From assembly GCF_002252665.1 (NCBI RefSeq), contig NZ_NQKZ01000016.1, positions 1 to 41,912 of the forward strand: a DNA stretch of 41,912 bases. The letters run 5' to 3'. A program made the translations under genes and the position numbers. The notes under the pieces are model-generated. The model did no database searches. It saw only the letters and a list, made by a program, of their open reading frames with translations, and was not told the origin of the DNA. Shown piece by piece: positions 3,322 to 19,197 of this stretch. Position 1 is the stretch's first letter. Each line of letters begins with the position of its first letter. This DNA comes from Synechococcus sp. 8F6. Its GTDB lineage: Bacteria > Cyanobacteriota > Cyanobacteriia > PCC-6307 > Cyanobiaceae.

Positions 3322-4951
<1,630 letters not shown>

Positions 4952-4980
4952 TCCCCTCTCCCTCCTGAGGACCCCTACCC

Positions 4981-5388
4981 ATGAGTCTCACCCTGCGCGT
5001 TCTGGCCCCCGATCAGAGCGTTTTTGACGGAACCGCTGAAGAGGTGATCCTGCCCAGCACCACCGGACAGGTGGGCATCCTGCCGGGCCACGTCACCATG
5101 CTGGCCGCGCTGGACACCGGCGTGATGCGCCTGCGCTCCGGCGGTGCCTGGTCGACGATCGCCCTGATGGGTGGCTTCGCCGAAGTGGAAGCTGACGAGG
5201 TGACGGTGCTGGTTAACGGTGCTGAACTCGGCAGCAGCATTGATGCCGCCTCGGCTGAAGCAGCCTTTGAGGCCGCCCAAAGTGCTGCCGCCGCCTTCGA
5301 AGGCCAAGCCACTAGTGCCAACAAGGCGAAGGCACTGCAGGCCCTGGCCACGGCCCGTGCCCGTTTCCAGGCCACCAAGGCGGGCTAG
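4981..5388 (+). CDS. atpC: ATP synthase F1 subunit epsilon
   Basis: This 135-residue protein is of normal length for epsilon, part of the central stalk and an inhibitor of ATP hydrolysis. It opens with the family pattern SLTLRVLAPDQSVFDG and has STTGQVGILPGHVTMLAALD in the N-terminal beta sandwich. The C-terminal helical hairpin is Ala-rich (about residues 85-135). A GAGGA ribosome site lies upstream of the ATG. It is the second gene of an atpD-atpC unit and is followed by a terminator 32 bases after the stop. Confidence 0.97.
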   Translation: MSLTLRVLAPDQSVFDGTAEEVILPSTTGQVGILPGHVTMLAALDTGVMRLRSGGAWSTIALMGGFAEVEADEVTVLVNGAELGSSIDAASAEAAFEAAQSAAAAFEGQATSANKAKALQALATARARFQATKAG

Positions 5389-14577: not shown

Positions 14578-15729
14578 ATGGCAGCCCCCAGCCCCGGCGC
14601 GGGCCACACGGCACCAATGGCCAGCATCGGCGTGCCAGCGGAAATCAAGCGCGATGAGCAGCGGGTGGCCCTCACACCCGACGCCGCCGGCGACCTGGTG
14701 AACCAGGGCATGGAGGTGCGCATCCAGGCCGGCGCTGGCCTGGGGGCAGGATTCACGGACGAGCAGTTTGCCGCCGCCGGCGCCCGGTTGGTGAGCGCAG
14801 AGGAGGCCTGGGCCGCCCACCTGGTGGTGAAGGTGAAGGAGCCCCAGCCGGAGGAATTTGCCTTCCTGCGCCCCGACCTGGTGCTGTTCACCTACCTGCA
14901 TCTGGCGGCCTATCCCGATGTGGGCCGGGCCCTGCTGGCGGCCGGCACCACAGCGGTGGCCTACGAAACGGTGCAGCTCGACGACGGCTCCCTGCCCCTG
15001 CTGGCGCCGATGAGCGAGATCGCCGGCCGCATCGCCGCCCAGGTGGGGGCCCACCTGCTGGAAAAACCCCACGGCGGGCGCGGCATCCTGATGGGGGGCT
15101 GCACGGGGGTGCGGCCGGCCCGGGTGGTCGTGCTGGGGGCGGGCAGTGTGGGCTGGAATGCGGCCCGGATCGCCGCCGCGATGGACGCGGAGGTGTTTCT
15201 GCTGGACCGCTCGCCCCAGAAATTGCGCAGCCTGGAGGCCCACCGCCGCGGGCGCCTGGTGAGCCTGGTGAGCAACCGCAGCCTGATCGAACGCCTGGTG
15301 CCGCAGGCCGACCTGCTGATCGGCGCCGTGCTCACGGCCGGCGGCCGCGCTCCCACCCTGGTGAGTGAAGCGCTGGTGCAGCAGATGCAGCCTGGCTCGG
15401 TGATCGTCGATGTGGCGATCGATCAGGGGGGCTGCATTGCCACCAGCCGCGAGACCACCCACACCGATCCGGTGCACACCCTCCACGGCGTGCAGCACTA
15501 CGCCGTCGGCAACATGCCCGGCGCCGTGCCCTACACCTCCACCGAAGCGCTGGTGAGCGTCACCCTGCCCTACATCCTGGTGATGGCTGGGCGGGGCCTG
15601 GTGGAGGCCGTCACCGATCGCCCCGAGCTGCTCTCGGGCCTCAATACCGCGGCTGGGGCCGTGTGCCACCCGGGCGTGGCCAGGGCCCTGGGGGTGACAC
15701 CCCGGCACCCGATGGCCTGCCTGCAGTGA
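14578..15729 (+). CDS. ald: Alanine dehydrogenase
   Basis: This enzyme interconverts alanine with pyruvate and ammonia using NAD(H). The substrate domain starts IGVPAEIKRDEQRVALTPDA. The Rossmann motif is VVVLGAGSVGWNAARIAAAM, followed by FLLDRSPQKLRSLE. SVIVDVAIDQGGC and HYAVGNMPGAVPYTST are family signatures. The first ATG at 14578 gives 383 residues; a second in-frame ATG at 14617 (MASIGVPAEIK) gives 370, the common family length. It starts three bases after the nadE stop. Its need for NAD makes the neighbourhood with nadD-nadE suggestive. Confidence 0.93.
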   Translation: MAAPSPGAGHTAPMASIGVPAEIKRDEQRVALTPDAAGDLVNQGMEVRIQAGAGLGAGFTDEQFAAAGARLVSAEEAWAAHLVVKVKEPQPEEFAFLRPDLVLFTYLHLAAYPDVGRALLAAGTTAVAYETVQLDDGSLPLLAPMSEIAGRIAAQVGAHLLEKPHGGRGILMGGCTGVRPARVVVLGAGSVGWNAARIAAAMDAEVFLLDRSPQKLRSLEAHRRGRLVSLVSNRSLIERLVPQADLLIGAVLTAGGRAPTLVSEALVQQMQPGSVIVDVAIDQGGCIATSRETTHTDPVHTLHGVQHYAVGNMPGAVPYTSTEALVSVTLPYILVMAGRGLVEAVTDRPELLSGLNTAAGAVCHPGVARALGVTPRHPMACLQ

Positions 15730-16794
15730 CTAGCGCAGGCGGGGCAGGGGCCGCTCCAGGGCGGCGGGGCTGATCCCCTCCCGCAGGGCCACCAACAACC
15801 CCGCCGCTGCCGCATAACTGTCCGCCGTCAGCACCTCCAGCCCCAGGGCCTCGGCCGAGACCGCCAGCACACAGGGGTTGTGCACAGCGATCACGGGAAT
15901 GCCGCGCTCAGCGCAGGCCAGCACGGCAGCACCGCCGAGGGCTCCTGCGGGTGCGACCACGGCCCCCACGTCACCGATCTGCAGCAGGTCTGCACCCGCT
16001 GCCCAGGGCGCGGACGCACCAGCTGCCAGCGGCACCAGATCGGGCGCCCGGCTCAAGCCCACCAGCACGCAGGCCAGAAACGTGTAGCCCAATTCCTCCC
16101 CCGCCGCCCGCGGATCGAGATCGGGATCCAGCGGCAGCGGGCTGAGGGCCGGCGCATGGGCGCAGGGGATCCCCAGCTCCCGGCTGAGCAGATGGCTGAT
16201 CACCGCTTCGGCGCCGGCCAGGGCATCCACGCCAGAGCCCTGGCGATAGGCCGCCAGGGCCTCACTGCCGGGATCCTCCGGAAAGCGGGCCACCACGGCG
16301 ATGGCCGTGGCCCCAGCCGCCTGCAGCTGCCGGCCAGCCCGCAGCAGGGCATCGGGGCGGCCGAGCTGCCCCCAGCTGGCGCCGCTGGCCCCCTGGCGCA
16401 AGGAAACCTCAAGGGGCGCATCGGTGCTGACCACCGGGCCGATCTCCAGGCCCAGGCTGGCGCGACAACCCTCAGCCACCTGCAGGTGGCGCCAGCGCAA
16501 CTCCTCTTCGATACCAGCATCGAGCAGCAGTCCCACCCGCTGCCGGCGCACCGGCTGCAACGCCAGGGCCCCGGCGGCGAAACGATCCAACGCCGACCCC
16601 TCCACGTAGTGGATGCGCGGGTCACTCCAGTAGAGGGCCGCCCCGTTCATCACGTTGGGGTGGGTGATCAGGCAGCCGCTGGCGGCCGCCAGCAAGCGGG
16701 CGACGGGTAGGCCATCGCCCGCGTAGCCGCCGAGCTCGCAACCGATGCCGGTCGGAATCACCAGCAGCGTGGGCAGGGGCCGGGAGGCCGTCAT
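15730..16794 (-). CDS. DUF3326 domain protein, function unknown
   Basis: This 354-residue protein matches the cyanobacterial/plant DUF3326 family as I recall it: LLVIPTGIGCELGGYAGDGL near the N-terminus, then CLITHPNVMNGAALYWSDPR and HYVEGSALDRFAAG. The C-terminal half has Gly/Ala-rich segments (LLQIGDVGAVVAPAGALGG; VIAVHNPCVLAVSAEALGL). No cofactor site is obvious to me, and no membrane segment is clear. It is the last gene of a minus-strand set. Its start overlaps the stop of the 67-residue gene (ATGA), and its stop abuts the ald stop from the other strand. The family has no established function that I know of. Confidence 0.82.
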   Translation of the reverse strand: MTASRPLPTLLVIPTGIGCELGGYAGDGLPVARLLAAASGCLITHPNVMNGAALYWSDPRIHYVEGSALDRFAAGALALQPVRRQRVGLLLDAGIEEELRWRHLQVAEGCRASLGLEIGPVVSTDAPLEVSLRQGASGASWGQLGRPDALLRAGRQLQAAGATAIAVVARFPEDPGSEALAAYRQGSGVDALAGAEAVISHLLSRELGIPCAHAPALSPLPLDPDLDPRAAGEELGYTFLACVLVGLSRAPDLVPLAAGASAPWAAGADLLQIGDVGAVVAPAGALGGAAVLACAERGIPVIAVHNPCVLAVSAEALGLEVLTADSYAAAAGLLVALREGISPAALERPLPRLR

Positions 16795-16994
16795 GCCAGC
16801 ACCACCGCTTCAATCGTCAGCACCGCACCCCCGGGTCCCGCCTGGGGATCGGCGGCCGGCTCCACCGCGACGATCGCCCAGCGCAACGGCTGCCCCTCAG
16901 CCGCCAGGGCGGTTTCGATCTGGACCAGCAGCGAGCCGGGGCCGCGGGGGAGACGCAAGGTGACGGGGCGCAGGCTGAGCGCCGAGCTGCTCAC
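16791..16994 (-). CDS. Small conserved-looking protein between ferredoxin and DUF3326 gene
   Basis: This is a protein of 67 residues with a GTG start overlapping the ferredoxin stop (GTGA) and a stop overlapping the DUF3326 start (ATGA). The sequence starts SSSALSLRPVTLRLPRGPGS and contains GQPLRWAIVAVEPA and a hydrophobic end TIEAVVLA. Alternating hydrophobic residues suggest a small beta-rich fold. There are no Cys and no membrane helix. I do not recognise a family. The double overlap strongly supports it as a real gene translated with its neighbours. Confidence 0.7.
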   Translation of the reverse strand: MSSSALSLRPVTLRLPRGPGSLLVQIETALAAEGQPLRWAIVAVEPAADPQAGPGGAVLTIEAVVLA

Positions 16995-17353
16995 TTCTGG
17001 TATTGGCCGAACTGGGCTTCGTAGAGGGCGTCCTCCATCCCCGCCTGGAGCTTGAGATCCGCCAGGGGAAAGGAGACGCAGAGCAGGGCATAGCCCTGCT
17101 GCTGCAGCTCGGCCTTGACGCCCATGGCGTCGGGCTGGTGCACGCTGCCCTCGCTGATCAGCGCCGCACAGGTGGTGCACACCCCCGAACAGCAGGAGCT
17201 GGGCAGGGGCACGCCGGCCGCCTCGGCCGCGGCCAGCACGGTCTGGTCGCTGCGGCAGGGGAAAGTGTGCTGGGCGCCTTCAAATGCGGCGGTGATCGTG
17301 AAGGTCTGGGGATCGGTCACGGGAGGGGCCGGATCGGAGCTGCGATGCCCCAT
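16991..17353 (-). CDS. [2Fe-2S] ferredoxin, plant type
   Basis: This protein of 120 residues has the plant-type cluster pattern C-x4-C-x2-C-x29-C at Cys54, Cys59, Cys62 and Cys92, with an extra Cys at 55 (PSSCCSGVCTTCAALI and YALLCVSFP). A short non-conserved N-terminus (about 1-16) precedes the beta-grasp start TFTITAAFEGAQHTF. It carries single electrons in the cytosol. It has a C-terminal extension after the last Cys (to EAQFGQYQK) that the main photosynthetic ferredoxin lacks, so it is probably a specialised ferredoxin. Its stop overlaps the start of the 67-residue gene, suggesting that the cluster uses its electrons. Confidence 0.9.
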   Translation of the reverse strand: MGHRSSDPAPPVTDPQTFTITAAFEGAQHTFPCRSDQTVLAAAEAAGVPLPSSCCSGVCTTCAALISEGSVHQPDAMGVKAELQQQGYALLCVSFPLADLKLQAGMEDALYEAQFGQYQK

Positions 17354-17389
17354 CTTCCCAGCCCGCCTCCACGCACCCGGCGGGCGGGC

Positions 17390-18112
17390 TCACAACTCCT
17401 GCCACTGGCTGGGGTGGGGGGCCAGGTATTCCGGCGGCGTAGCTCCGGCCTCAGCGGCAGGTGCGCTCAAAGCGAAATCGATGCTGAGGGAGCAGCGCAG
17501 ATCGTCGGGGTCCTCGTTGGGCAGCACGGCGTGATCCAGGCAGCTGGGGAACAGCAGCAGCAGGCCGGCCTGGGGAGCCACATCCACCCAGGGAGCGGTC
17601 CAGGGCGAGGGGGCGAGGGGACCGCCGTGCCCCACGGCCATGCCCGGCACCAGCTCGTTGATCTGCCGCTTCGGCCACAGGCGCAGACAACCGCTGCGCC
17701 CGGTGCCATCGCCATTGAGGTAGTAGATGGCACTGAGATGGGCATTGGGGTGGTGGTGCCGGCCCACCACCTGCCCCGCCTCGCTGAGCACCGGCCAGCA
17801 GCGCTGAATGTGCAGGGCCGTCTTGGCGTGATCAAAGCCGAGCTGCTGCAGGTAGGCCTGCGCGTGACCAGCCAGAACGGCGATCAAGGGCGCAAAGACG
17901 CGATGGCGCTGCAGCTGCCACACGCCGTTGAGATCCCCCGTCCAGGCACAGCCGGGATCCGGATTCGAGCCAGCCTCACCTCTGAGGCTATTCATCGCCT
18001 GAATCTGAAGCGCCGTCTCGAGTGGATCGGGCAACAGCTGCACCCGTCCGAGCGCCACGGGGAACAGGGTCTCGATCGCCAGCCCGGCAGCGGCAGGCAA
18101 CGGCTGGAGCAT
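17390..18112 (-). CDS. Putative 2-oxoglutarate/Fe(II) oxygenase (TIGR02466-like)
   Basis: The C-terminal half looks like the 2OG-Fe(II) oxygenase group that carries the pattern H-x-HP-x-x-x-S-x-x-YYL: HHHPNAHLSAIYYLNG near residues 119-134, with a second His in SCLDHAVLPNE (about 194) and Arg206 in RCSLSID for the co-substrate. These are the expected iron ligands and 2-oxoglutarate contact. The substrate is unknown. I chose the ATG at 18112, preceded by GGAGGAG; a GTG at 18124 is also in frame. The ferredoxin gene follows after 36 bases on the same strand, so co-transcription is likely. Confidence 0.75.
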   Translation of the reverse strand: MLQPLPAAAGLAIETLFPVALGRVQLLPDPLETALQIQAMNSLRGEAGSNPDPGCAWTGDLNGVWQLQRHRVFAPLIAVLAGHAQAYLQQLGFDHAKTALHIQRCWPVLSEAGQVVGRHHHPNAHLSAIYYLNGDGTGRSGCLRLWPKRQINELVPGMAVGHGGPLAPSPWTAPWVDVAPQAGLLLLFPSCLDHAVLPNEDPDDLRCSLSIDFALSAPAAEAGATPPEYLAPHPSQWQEL

Positions 18113-18168
18113 CGGCTCCTCCACAACGCACAGGGATTCCGCTCCAGCATCTCAGCCGCAGCAGCGCA

Positions 18169-18210
18169 CAAAAATCCCCGACCTCCACGCGGTGGCGGGG
18201 AGTTCGGGGA
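18169..18210 (-). terminator. Terminator of the main ATP synthase operon
   Basis: On the minus strand CCCCGAACTCC pairs with GGAGGTCGGGG apart from one mismatch, and ATTTTT follows (plus-strand A run near 18169-18174). It lies 34 bases past the atpG stop. Confidence 0.85.
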
Positions 18211-18243
18211 TGGAGCGCTGACGGCAGCGTGAAGAGGCTGTGC

Positions 18244-19197
18244 TCAGGCCATGGCCGCGGCGCCGCCCACCACTTCCAGGATCTCCTGGGTGATGGCCGC
18301 CTGACGCGCCTTGTTGTAGTCGAGGGTGAGGGTCTTGGCGAGCGCCTTGGCGTTGTCGCTGGCGTTGTTCATGGCCGTCATCCGGCTGGCGAGCTCGGAA
18401 GCAGCAGCCTCCTGGAGGGAGCGCAGCAACTGGTTTTCCAGATACAGCGGCAGTAGCGCATTGAGCAGCTGATCCGGGCTCTGATCGAACACGATGTCGG
18501 ACGGCAGCTTGGGCTGCGGGTTGGCGGCCGTACCCACTTCCACACCCAGCTGACCATCCCGGGTGGTCAGACGGAAGATCTCGTCTTCAGGGATAGCAAT
18601 GCCCTGGGGATCCAGGGGCAGCAGGGTCTGGATGACCGGCTTGGAGCTCACCAAGTTGATGAACTTGGTGAAGATGATCTCCACCCGGTCGGTGGTGCCG
18701 GCGAGAAACTCCGCCAGCACCTCGTTGGCGATGCCCATCGCCTCATTCGCCTTGGGAACCTGCTCGAGGCCCGTGAAGGTGGCCCGAATGGTGTATTGGC
18801 TGGCGCGATTCTGGAAATAGGTGATCGCCTTGCGGCCGATCAACACCAGATCCACGGCATAGCCCTGGCCCTTGAGCTCAGCAACGCGCTGCTCGGTGCG
18901 CTTGATGATGTTGGCGTTGTAGCCGCCGCACAAACCGCGATCGCCGGTCACCGCCATCAGGGTAATGGTGGCCACATCGCGCTGCTCCAGCAGGGGAGCA
19001 TCGGCATCTTCAAAGCGCATGCGCGACTGGAGATTTTCCAGCACGCGAGCGAGGCGGTCGGCGAAGGGCCGGCTGCGCAGCACCTGCTCCTGGGCACGGC
19101 GCACCTTGGCGGCCGCCACCAGACGCATGGCCTCGGTGATCTTGCGGGTGTTCTTGACCGAACTGATCCGGTCGCGGATGTCCTTGAGGTTTGCCAT
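18244..19197 (-). CDS. atpG: ATP synthase F1 subunit gamma
   Basis: This 317-residue protein is the rotating central stalk. The N-terminal helix begins [20 protein letters not shown] and the conserved C-terminus includes [20 protein letters not shown] and [12 protein letters not shown]. It is longer than most bacterial gamma subunits because of the photosynthetic insertion around residues 200-235 ([29 protein letters not shown]). That insertion lacks the Cys pair used for redox control in chloroplasts, as usual in cyanobacteria. It is the last gene of the operon, 15 bases after atpA, and is followed by the terminator at 18169-18210. Confidence 0.97.

Follow-up and report, generated by a model that had tools for sequence, protein, structure and literature searches.

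The window analysed here (the whole stretch of 41,912 nucleotides from Synechococcus sp. 8F6, contig NZ_NQKZ01000016.1) carries on its minus strand, in the order of reading, a 2OG-Fe(II) oxygenase-like gene (17390–18124; PF13759/TIGR02466), a plant-type [2Fe-2S] ferredoxin gene (16991–17353; Fer2, E 1.9e-16), a small gene with a GTG start, here called ORF67 (16791–16994, 67 aa), and a gene for a 354 aa protein of the DUF3326 family (15730–16794; PF11805, E 7.2e-146), the one match to this family in the genome. As the first-pass annotation had pointed out, the last three genes overlap at their junctions: the end of the ferredoxin gene and the beginning of ORF67 share GTGA (16991–16994, read from 16994 to 16991), and the end of ORF67 and the beginning of DUF3326 share ATGA (16791–16794, read from 16794 to 16791). 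The ends of the tblastn matches imply the same two overlaps in locus L062 (ferredoxin to 4813, ORF67 4813–5001, DUF3326 from 5001), and since they recur there and the gene order is kept across photosynthetic genera, we regard them as more than chance. The oxygenase gene, on the same strand, lies 36 bases upstream if the ferredoxin starts at the ATG at 17353, as had been assumed; with the GTG at 17320, which comparison with relatives makes the more likely start, the distance would be 69 bases. A sigma-70 consensus scan of positions 15600–18300 yielded no promoter-like site (0.1 expected) and one terminator-like site, within the coding region of the ferredoxin (against 0.7 from chance); both tests are weak.

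The ferredoxin exceeds the PF00111 cut-off (60.2 bits against 21) and falls below the NCBI cut-off of TIGR02008 (fdx_plant; 67.9 against 81.15 bits); its four cluster cysteines, C54, C59, C62 and C92, are invariant in 15 sequences. By gene order it is assigned to fed3 (the slr1828 class): the cyanobacterial 'cluster d', fed3-DUF650-DUF3326, was reported by Cassier-Chauvat and Chauvat in 2014 (PMC4284462), and the ferredoxin stands beside DUF3326 here as it does there, the label of the middle gene apart. The label used there is DUF650, for which no Pfam match was obtained with the ORF67 proteins scanned here. The unit had been called undescribed at first pass, which is half right: a version of the cluster was in print, and the passages on cluster d in PMC4284462 contain no partnership, fusion or non-photosynthetic data. 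A link to the Mg-protoporphyrin ester cyclase has been described for FdC2, VirK and Synechocystis Fed2 (PMC8408499, PMC10947542), which like the present protein are plant-type [2Fe-2S] ferredoxins with a C-terminal extension. We considered this link for the present ferredoxin and rejected it, as the plant FdC2 work, in the parts of these reports that bear on it, concerns Fed2; the Synechocystis ortholog of VirK is Fed2 (sll1382), while the ferredoxin adjoining DUF3326 is, by synteny, fed3, and the two are set apart by gene order.

The first-pass annotation had proposed searching cyanobacterial genomes for this gene order, and the order ferredoxin-ORF67-DUF3326 indeed proved to be conserved across photosynthetic genera. 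In a set of genus-level loci covering 80 of the 86 genera of the photosynthetic class, 70 of 80 loci have ORF67 no more than 1.5 kb upstream of DUF3326, and 52 have a ferredoxin within 6 kb upstream, with ORF67 present every time; the combination of ferredoxin and DUF3326 without ORF67 does not occur (0/80). The pair ORF67-DUF3326 without an upstream ferredoxin is found at 18 loci (of the 70 with ORF67 nearby, 80 in total), one of which, L206, has only about 450 bases of contig upstream. L064, whose contig is cut at this point, was also scored as ferredoxin-free. A further set of 80 named loci overlaps partly with the genus-level set (L062 and L225 are apparently one contig), and the two are therefore not summed. 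In the 10 genomes without a neighbouring ORF67, the gene was found elsewhere in all 10 (E from 1.4e-5 to 3.5e-25), in three of them still together with a ferredoxin (L268, L274 and, by coordinates, G171). The oxygenase, which scores above both curated cut-offs (PF13759, 66.9 bits against 27; TIGR02466, 73.9 against 62.5), had been counted as a member of the unit; with an upstream copy in 5/80 loci it is better described as a local neighbour outside the conserved unit. The gene atpG is found upstream in 20/80 loci, and the two cases indicate that neighbours of no evident relation occur at DUF3326 loci.

DUF3326 itself was detected in 381 of 386 genomes of the phylum Cyanobacteriota, photosynthetic or not, and in none of 13 non-cyanobacterial control genomes. 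All 53 genomes outside the photosynthetic class lack PsaA/B. Among 40 DUF3326 loci outside this class no ferredoxin was found in the flank, and none of the nine genomes tested has a comparable ferredoxin. ORF67 was matched in 31 of 49 genomes outside the class, and there it is adjacent to DUF3326 (4/40 loci: L052, L053, L055 and L236, directly upstream in each), unlinked, or fused to it (two genomes, with modest and weak matches). It was not found in families f37 (0/6), f32 (0/3), f40 (0/1) and f41 (0/1), nor in 5 of the 31 f31 genomes, and in genus g106 three genomes match ORF67 but not DUF3326. The first-pass annotation had named, as an outcome that would speak against its unit, DUF3326 usually standing without the ferredoxin or the small gene; this is the case for the ferredoxin only outside the photosynthetic class, and not for the small gene.

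The in-frame fusion of ORF67 to DUF3326 in L244/L319 has modest scores (14.6 bits in one search, 11.5 in another), and that in L316 comprises an ORF67-like segment at residues 37–94 with an intact LLRWAV motif, followed by DUF3326 from residue 116 (5.8 bits, E 0.045). No ORF67 match was obtained for the N-terminal extension of L315, and that of family f37 has no detectable similarity to ORF67 (five sequences; the score is equalled in 124 of 150 shuffles). Four phage DUF3326 proteins from three lineages possess an N-terminal domain that aligns with ORF67 over the length of the latter (hhalign 19.7, E 0.0012), a score reached by none of 200 column shuffles (maximum 12.2) and none of 101 control windows from proteins of the same phages (maximum 10.9); an initial comparison of the profiles, based on a different alignment that had two ORF67 sequences less, gave a weak result (probability 2.3, E 0.021). 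At the position of Arg38-Trp39 of ORF67, Arg-Phe is found in the phage domain. Searches with the L150 phage protein in the phages collection and with the L152 phage protein in plasmids gave no match. Separately, the region upstream of DUF3326 in L320 contains a stretch that resembles ORF67 weakly (E 0.014).

ORF67 has no Pfam or NCBIfam match, and a sequence search of the PDB returned nothing significant. The AlphaFold model predicts a βαββ fold (pLDDT 90.4, pTM 0.73), in which the LRWAI motif falls on a predicted strand (residues 35–46); its Arg38-Trp39 (16878–16883, minus strand) is invariant in both family alignments, of 37 (A4) and 57 (A9) sequences. Dodecins (PF07311) are small proteins whose dodecamer binds flavin between tryptophans, and they resemble ORF67 in length (about 67 aa), in the predicted order of secondary structures and in a Trp early in the second strand. 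Foldseek placed a dodecin first and many among the first 30 matches, all of them weak (probability up to 0.96, E at least 0.15, TM about 0.43–0.58), with lysine 5,6-aminomutase ranking beside them; structure comparison gave at best Z 5.2 for dodecin 2cz8 (rmsd 3.6, 62 residues aligned), behind Rpb7-type domains with Z 6.1. The profiles of the two families show weak similarity over the helix (hhalign 19.3, 22 columns; reached by 0/150 shuffles and 0/116 real windows), but the two align poorly when compared globally (score 5.3), their tryptophans coincide only once a gap of 3 residues is introduced, and with the phage N-terminal domain the dodecin profile gives no match (8.9). Of the tryptophan feature of dodecins, ORF67 sequences show just a conserved Trp; with E values up to 1 allowed, none of five ORF67 proteins matched the Pfam dodecin family. 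Dodecins as such were rejected, with the Pfam family present in 0 of 117 phylum genomes.

The DUF3326 protein is a full-length member of PF11805, a family with no assigned function (485.9 bits against a cut-off of 25; residues 9–346 on profile positions 2–336 of 337). Its glycine-rich loop PTGIGxxxGGxAGD (residues 14–27; 16714–16755, minus strand) contains P14, G16, G18, G22, G23, A25, G26 and D27, invariant in 32 phylum sequences, and is a candidate phosphate or ligand site. No cysteine is invariant or nearly so in the same 32 sequences; in a set drawn mainly from photosynthetic members, C211 comes close to invariance. A search of the PDB by sequence revealed nothing significant. For the AlphaFold model (pLDDT 89.6, pTM 0.88), the first Foldseek match was lumazine synthase (9yl5, E 4.3e-3), and structure comparison gave Z of at most 9.3 over about residues 82–256, with LacI, PIWI, lumazine synthase and arylmalonate decarboxylase tied; a viral fold library offered nothing usable (best E 1.1e-2).

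The co-occurrence of the two genes, the loci without ferredoxin, the adjacent, unlinked and fused forms and the phage domain together suggest that ORF67 is most likely an N-terminal domain or subunit that has split off from the DUF3326 protein, with the ferredoxin appearing as a later, dispensable and accessory neighbour of the pair. The idea of the small protein as a DUF3326 subunit, already raised at first pass, is thus supported by adjacency, co-occurrence and fusions. We put at roughly 0.7 the probability of a two-part machine in which the detached βαββ domain would act as a subunit, and the DUF3326 part would most likely be an enzyme whose glycine-rich loop holds a phosphorylated or nucleotide-like ligand and which makes use of conserved Asp, Glu, His and Asn residues. 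The invariant Arg-Trp strand of ORF67 would probably close or line this site, or hold an aromatic ligand. In photosynthetic cyanobacteria the upstream fed3-type ferredoxin is probably co-transcribed with the pair and may either work for the enzyme or simply be regulated together with it; several picocyanobacterial lineages have apparently lost it and kept the pair.

Could the ferredoxin instead be dedicated to supplying electrons to DUF3326 as a redox enzyme, ORF67 being the adaptor? The overlapping genes and a ferredoxin that never occurs upstream without ORF67 are in line with this, and the dodecins and lumazine synthase heading the two fold searches would suit a flavin; yet the ferredoxin is missing from 18/70 ORF67-DUF3326 loci and from all 40 outside the class, DUF3326 has no phylum-wide conserved cysteine, and Synechocystis fx3 (slr1828) was fully deleted with no photoautotrophic growth defect (PMC8887894), although fx3/fed3 is called essential in PMC4284462. 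Such an electron path, which the first-pass annotation had placed at the core, is accordingly unlikely, and the four-gene redox unit is rejected as the core because neither ferredoxin nor oxygenase is retained with the pair. That ORF67 is primarily the partner of the ferredoxin, with DUF3326 an operon bystander, would agree with the three genomes in which the two stay together away from DUF3326, but is highly improbable given the ferredoxin-less pairs (18/80 loci, plus 4/40 outside the class), the want of a comparable ferredoxin in the nine genomes tested, and fusions that join ORF67 to DUF3326. A mere housekeeping neighbourhood with no shared function, for which the atpG and oxygenase neighbours speak, is hardly credible, as it leaves unexplained both the retention of relocated ORF67 in 10/10 genomes and the fusions in relatives and phages.

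Taking the two-part reading further, ORF67 could be a dodecin-like aromatic-cofactor subunit and the pair an ancient flavin- or lumazine-type enzyme of the phylum that predates oxygenic photosynthesis, was later wired to photosynthetic electrons via fed3, and was taken by phages as a fusion next to a PS-decarboxylase-like gene, a scenario we consider distinctly doubtful. The preferred subunit reading would turn a small protein outside any Pfam or NCBIfam family into part of a defined complex that could be purified, would give a reason for possible failures of experiments with DUF3326 by itself, and moves the question from the effect of the ferredoxin on DUF3326 to the role of the pair before photosynthesis. 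It offers a first handle on a protein family that almost every cyanobacterium has, as do its relatives without photosynthesis.

PS-decarboxylase, encoded beside the phage genes, is not a general partner, since the family is present in 14 of 117 phylum genomes. Clustering of the neighbours at the 40 DUF3326 loci outside the photosynthetic class revealed no constant partner; in three of them DUF3326 lies beside genes that we take, by eye, to be hypoxanthine-phosphoribosyltransferase-like. DUF3326 is also annotated in potato (PMC13294368).

The unit in this cluster is the pair of DUF3326 and ORF67, the 67-residue protein encoded before it, and the ferredoxin, which is found upstream of DUF3326 only where ORF67 is too, is dispensable to that pair. 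In the window, DUF3326 (15730-16794), ORF67 (16791-16994), the ferredoxin (16991-17353) and the 2OG-Fe(II) oxygenase (17390-18124) all lie on the minus strand, and the sequence bears out the GTGA and ATGA overlaps reported in the first-pass annotation. Family matches were obtained for DUF3326 (PF11805), the ferredoxin (Fer2) and the oxygenase (PF13759/TIGR02466); ORF67 matched no Pfam or NCBIfam family, and the ferredoxin scored below the NCBI cut-off of the plant subfamily model (67.9 bits vs 81.15). Comparison with relatives places the probable start of the ferredoxin at GTG 17320 rather than ATG 17353, so that the gap to the oxygenase would grow to 69 bases. The next gene upstream after the oxygenase is atpG (PF00231), and DUF3326 meets an alanine dehydrogenase gene (TIGR00518, 464.4 bits) in convergent orientation, the stop codons of the two directly abutting at 15729/15730.

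The cluster had been proposed to be an undescribed redox unit, in which the ferredoxin feeds electrons to DUF3326. "Undescribed" is only partly correct, since a figure legend in PMC4284462 already lists fed3, DUF650 and DUF3326 as cyanobacterial "cluster d"; the DUF650 label of that legend was not reproduced for the ORF67 proteins scanned against Pfam. Two studies that tested fed3 (slr1828), the Synechocystis counterpart of the ferredoxin by gene order, contradict each other: PMC4284462 calls it essential for photoautotrophic growth, and PMC8887894 reports a full deletion that left photoautotrophic growth normal and impaired growth under photomixotrophic conditions. A potato gene is annotated as DUF3326 in PMC13294368.

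DUF3326 is present in 381 of 386 genomes of the phylum (the misses are G032, G047, G078, G126 and G349). Among 80 loci of the photosynthetic class, one per genus (80 of 86 genera sampled), ORF67 lies up to 450 bases upstream of DUF3326 in 66 and up to 1.5 kb upstream in 70. A ferredoxin occurs within 6 kb upstream in 52, each time together with ORF67, which favors the redox proposal; against it, 18 loci possess ORF67 without the ferredoxin (one, L206, with only ~450 bases of contig upstream) and only 5 possess the oxygenase. No locus has the ferredoxin without ORF67, 10 have neither, and 20 have atpG. The oxygenase was seen in this set only in picocyanobacteria, in 5 of the 11 loci from the window's own family. 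A second, overlapping set of 80 named loci, in which close relatives are over-represented, gave ORF67 in 79 at either distance, the ferredoxin in 56, both in 56, ORF67 without ferredoxin in 23, the reverse in 0 and neither in 1, with the oxygenase in 33 and atpG in 55. In all ten genomes without a neighboring ORF67 the gene was located elsewhere, adjoining a ferredoxin in three (L268, L274 and, by coordinates, G171). Four loci (L175, L182, L205 and L214) carry ~0.9 kb of variable sequence between ORF67 and DUF3326, the longest frames of which are unlike one another. A record titled Bifidobacterium breve (L094) contains a picocyanobacterial DUF3326 locus, and its title is probably wrong.

At an E limit of 1e-12, a profile of the window ferredoxin detected plant-type ferredoxins in 28/28 photosynthetic and 0/9 other genomes. 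In six picocyanobacterial genera without a neighboring ferredoxin the best match to this profile, which is not fed3-specific, is far weaker (E 8.5e-28 to 8.4e-34) than in the other 22 (1.1e-38 to 2.5e-53), from which we infer that fed3 was lost there.

The ORF67-DUF3326 pair looks older than its link to the ferredoxin, because it is present, whether adjacent, unlinked or fused, in lineages that lack photosystem I. PsaA/PsaB were absent from 53/53 genomes outside the class, including those of the 40 non-photosynthetic DUF3326 loci, and both positive controls matched. None of these 40 loci has a ferredoxin in the flank (up to 1.5 kb). ORF67 is directly upstream of DUF3326 in four (L052, L053, L055 and L236), and 31 of 49 genomes outside the class contain an ORF67 match (E up to 0.01), among them 26 of the 31 genomes of family f31. 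Where positions are listed for both genes, the coordinates put ORF67 apart from DUF3326, except for a fused one in G016. The ORF67 of locus L278, MKAINLQLKIKKKNDADYIEREISYYGKPLRWAIVEVSNEHYTIDCAILKEDE, is a clear family member. ORF67 was not found in families f37 (0/6), f32 (0/3), f40 (0/1) and f41 (0/1). In three genomes of genus g106 (G047, G078 and G126) ORF67 is matched, at E values between 2e-6 and 2e-5, though DUF3326 is not. Three distant lineages (L054, L056 and L058) share one type of gene directly upstream of DUF3326, which we take, by eye, to be hypoxanthine-phosphoribosyltransferase-like.

We regard ORF67 as most likely the N-terminal domain of the DUF3326 protein, separately encoded in most cyanobacteria sampled. 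In family f30 the DUF3326 frame has an N-terminal extension, with an ORF67-like stretch RWAVVGV..LLVEAAV in L244/L319 (14.6 bits, 11.5 bits in another search), a full-length ORF67-like stretch in L316 (residues 37-94, E 0.045, 5.8 bits) and nothing recognized in L315. Six f37 loci (L241, L252, L255, L259, L264 and L317) possess a conserved extension of ~80-95 residues at the place expected for ORF67; the five sequences tested showed no similarity to it (L317 was read by eye). A scan of IMG/VR revealed phage contigs whose DUF3326 proteins bear ~70 extra N-terminal residues. Phage genes (T4-like portal, head closure) beside DUF3326 were confirmed in L150 and weakly in L152, while the viral status of L151 and L154 is a database label. 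The ORF67 profile (39 sequences) matched the four phage proteins, which represent three lineages (L150 and L151 are 86% identical), over ORF67 positions 1-56 (score 19.7, E 0.0012). None of 200 column shuffles reached this score, 101 control windows from the same phage proteins and neighboring phosphatidylserine-decarboxylase-like proteins gave at most 10.9, and phage windows starting in the first 30 columns scored 17.4-19.6; the match had been weak in an earlier run that used a different alignment and two fewer ORF67 proteins. In these contigs (L150 2797-4889, L151, L152 2767-4896, L154 4001-6077) the fusion immediately precedes a member of the phosphatidylserine decarboxylase family (PF02666, E 2.5e-14 for L150, 4.6e-10 for L152; assigned by position, alignment and eye in L151 and L154). 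An adjoining secreted protein in L152 (886-2475), presumably, by eye, resembling Bacteroidota type-IX-secretion cargo, hints at the host of the phage.

The ORF67 model (pLDDT 90.4) comprises β 8-16, α 22-31, β 35-46 and β 57-66. Its top Foldseek match is dodecin, alongside lysine 5,6-aminomutase chains; a second aligner scored dodecins at Z 5.2, within 1 of Rpb7-type domains (6.1). Against the dodecin profile ORF67 scored 19.3, with the helices matched, a value reached by none of 150 shuffles (maximum 16.9) and none of 116 windows from the DUF3326 and ferredoxin alignments (maximum 12.1; reversed dodecin 10.5). However, the global alignment is poor, the Trp-Trp pairing requires a three-residue gap, and the phage N-terminal domain did not match (8.9). 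We take the likeness as a lead to an aromatic ligand, not as membership of dodecins. For the confidently modeled DUF3326 (pLDDT 89.6, pTM 0.88), Foldseek's top match was lumazine synthase (E 4.3e-3). Its residues ~82-256 are similar to many folds of the Rossmann or flavodoxin type, with Z scores reaching 9.3 and no single one prominent. Invariant residues in 32 sequences include P14, G16, G18, G22, G23, G26, D27, P46, N47, N50, Y63, E65, D92, D190, E196, H201, H213 and E233. The 32 sequences share no invariant or near-invariant cysteine, and this conservation pattern argues for a putative enzyme of neither the Fe-S nor the thiol type, at least phylum-wide; C211 comes close to invariance in a set of 61 sequences that are mainly photosynthetic.
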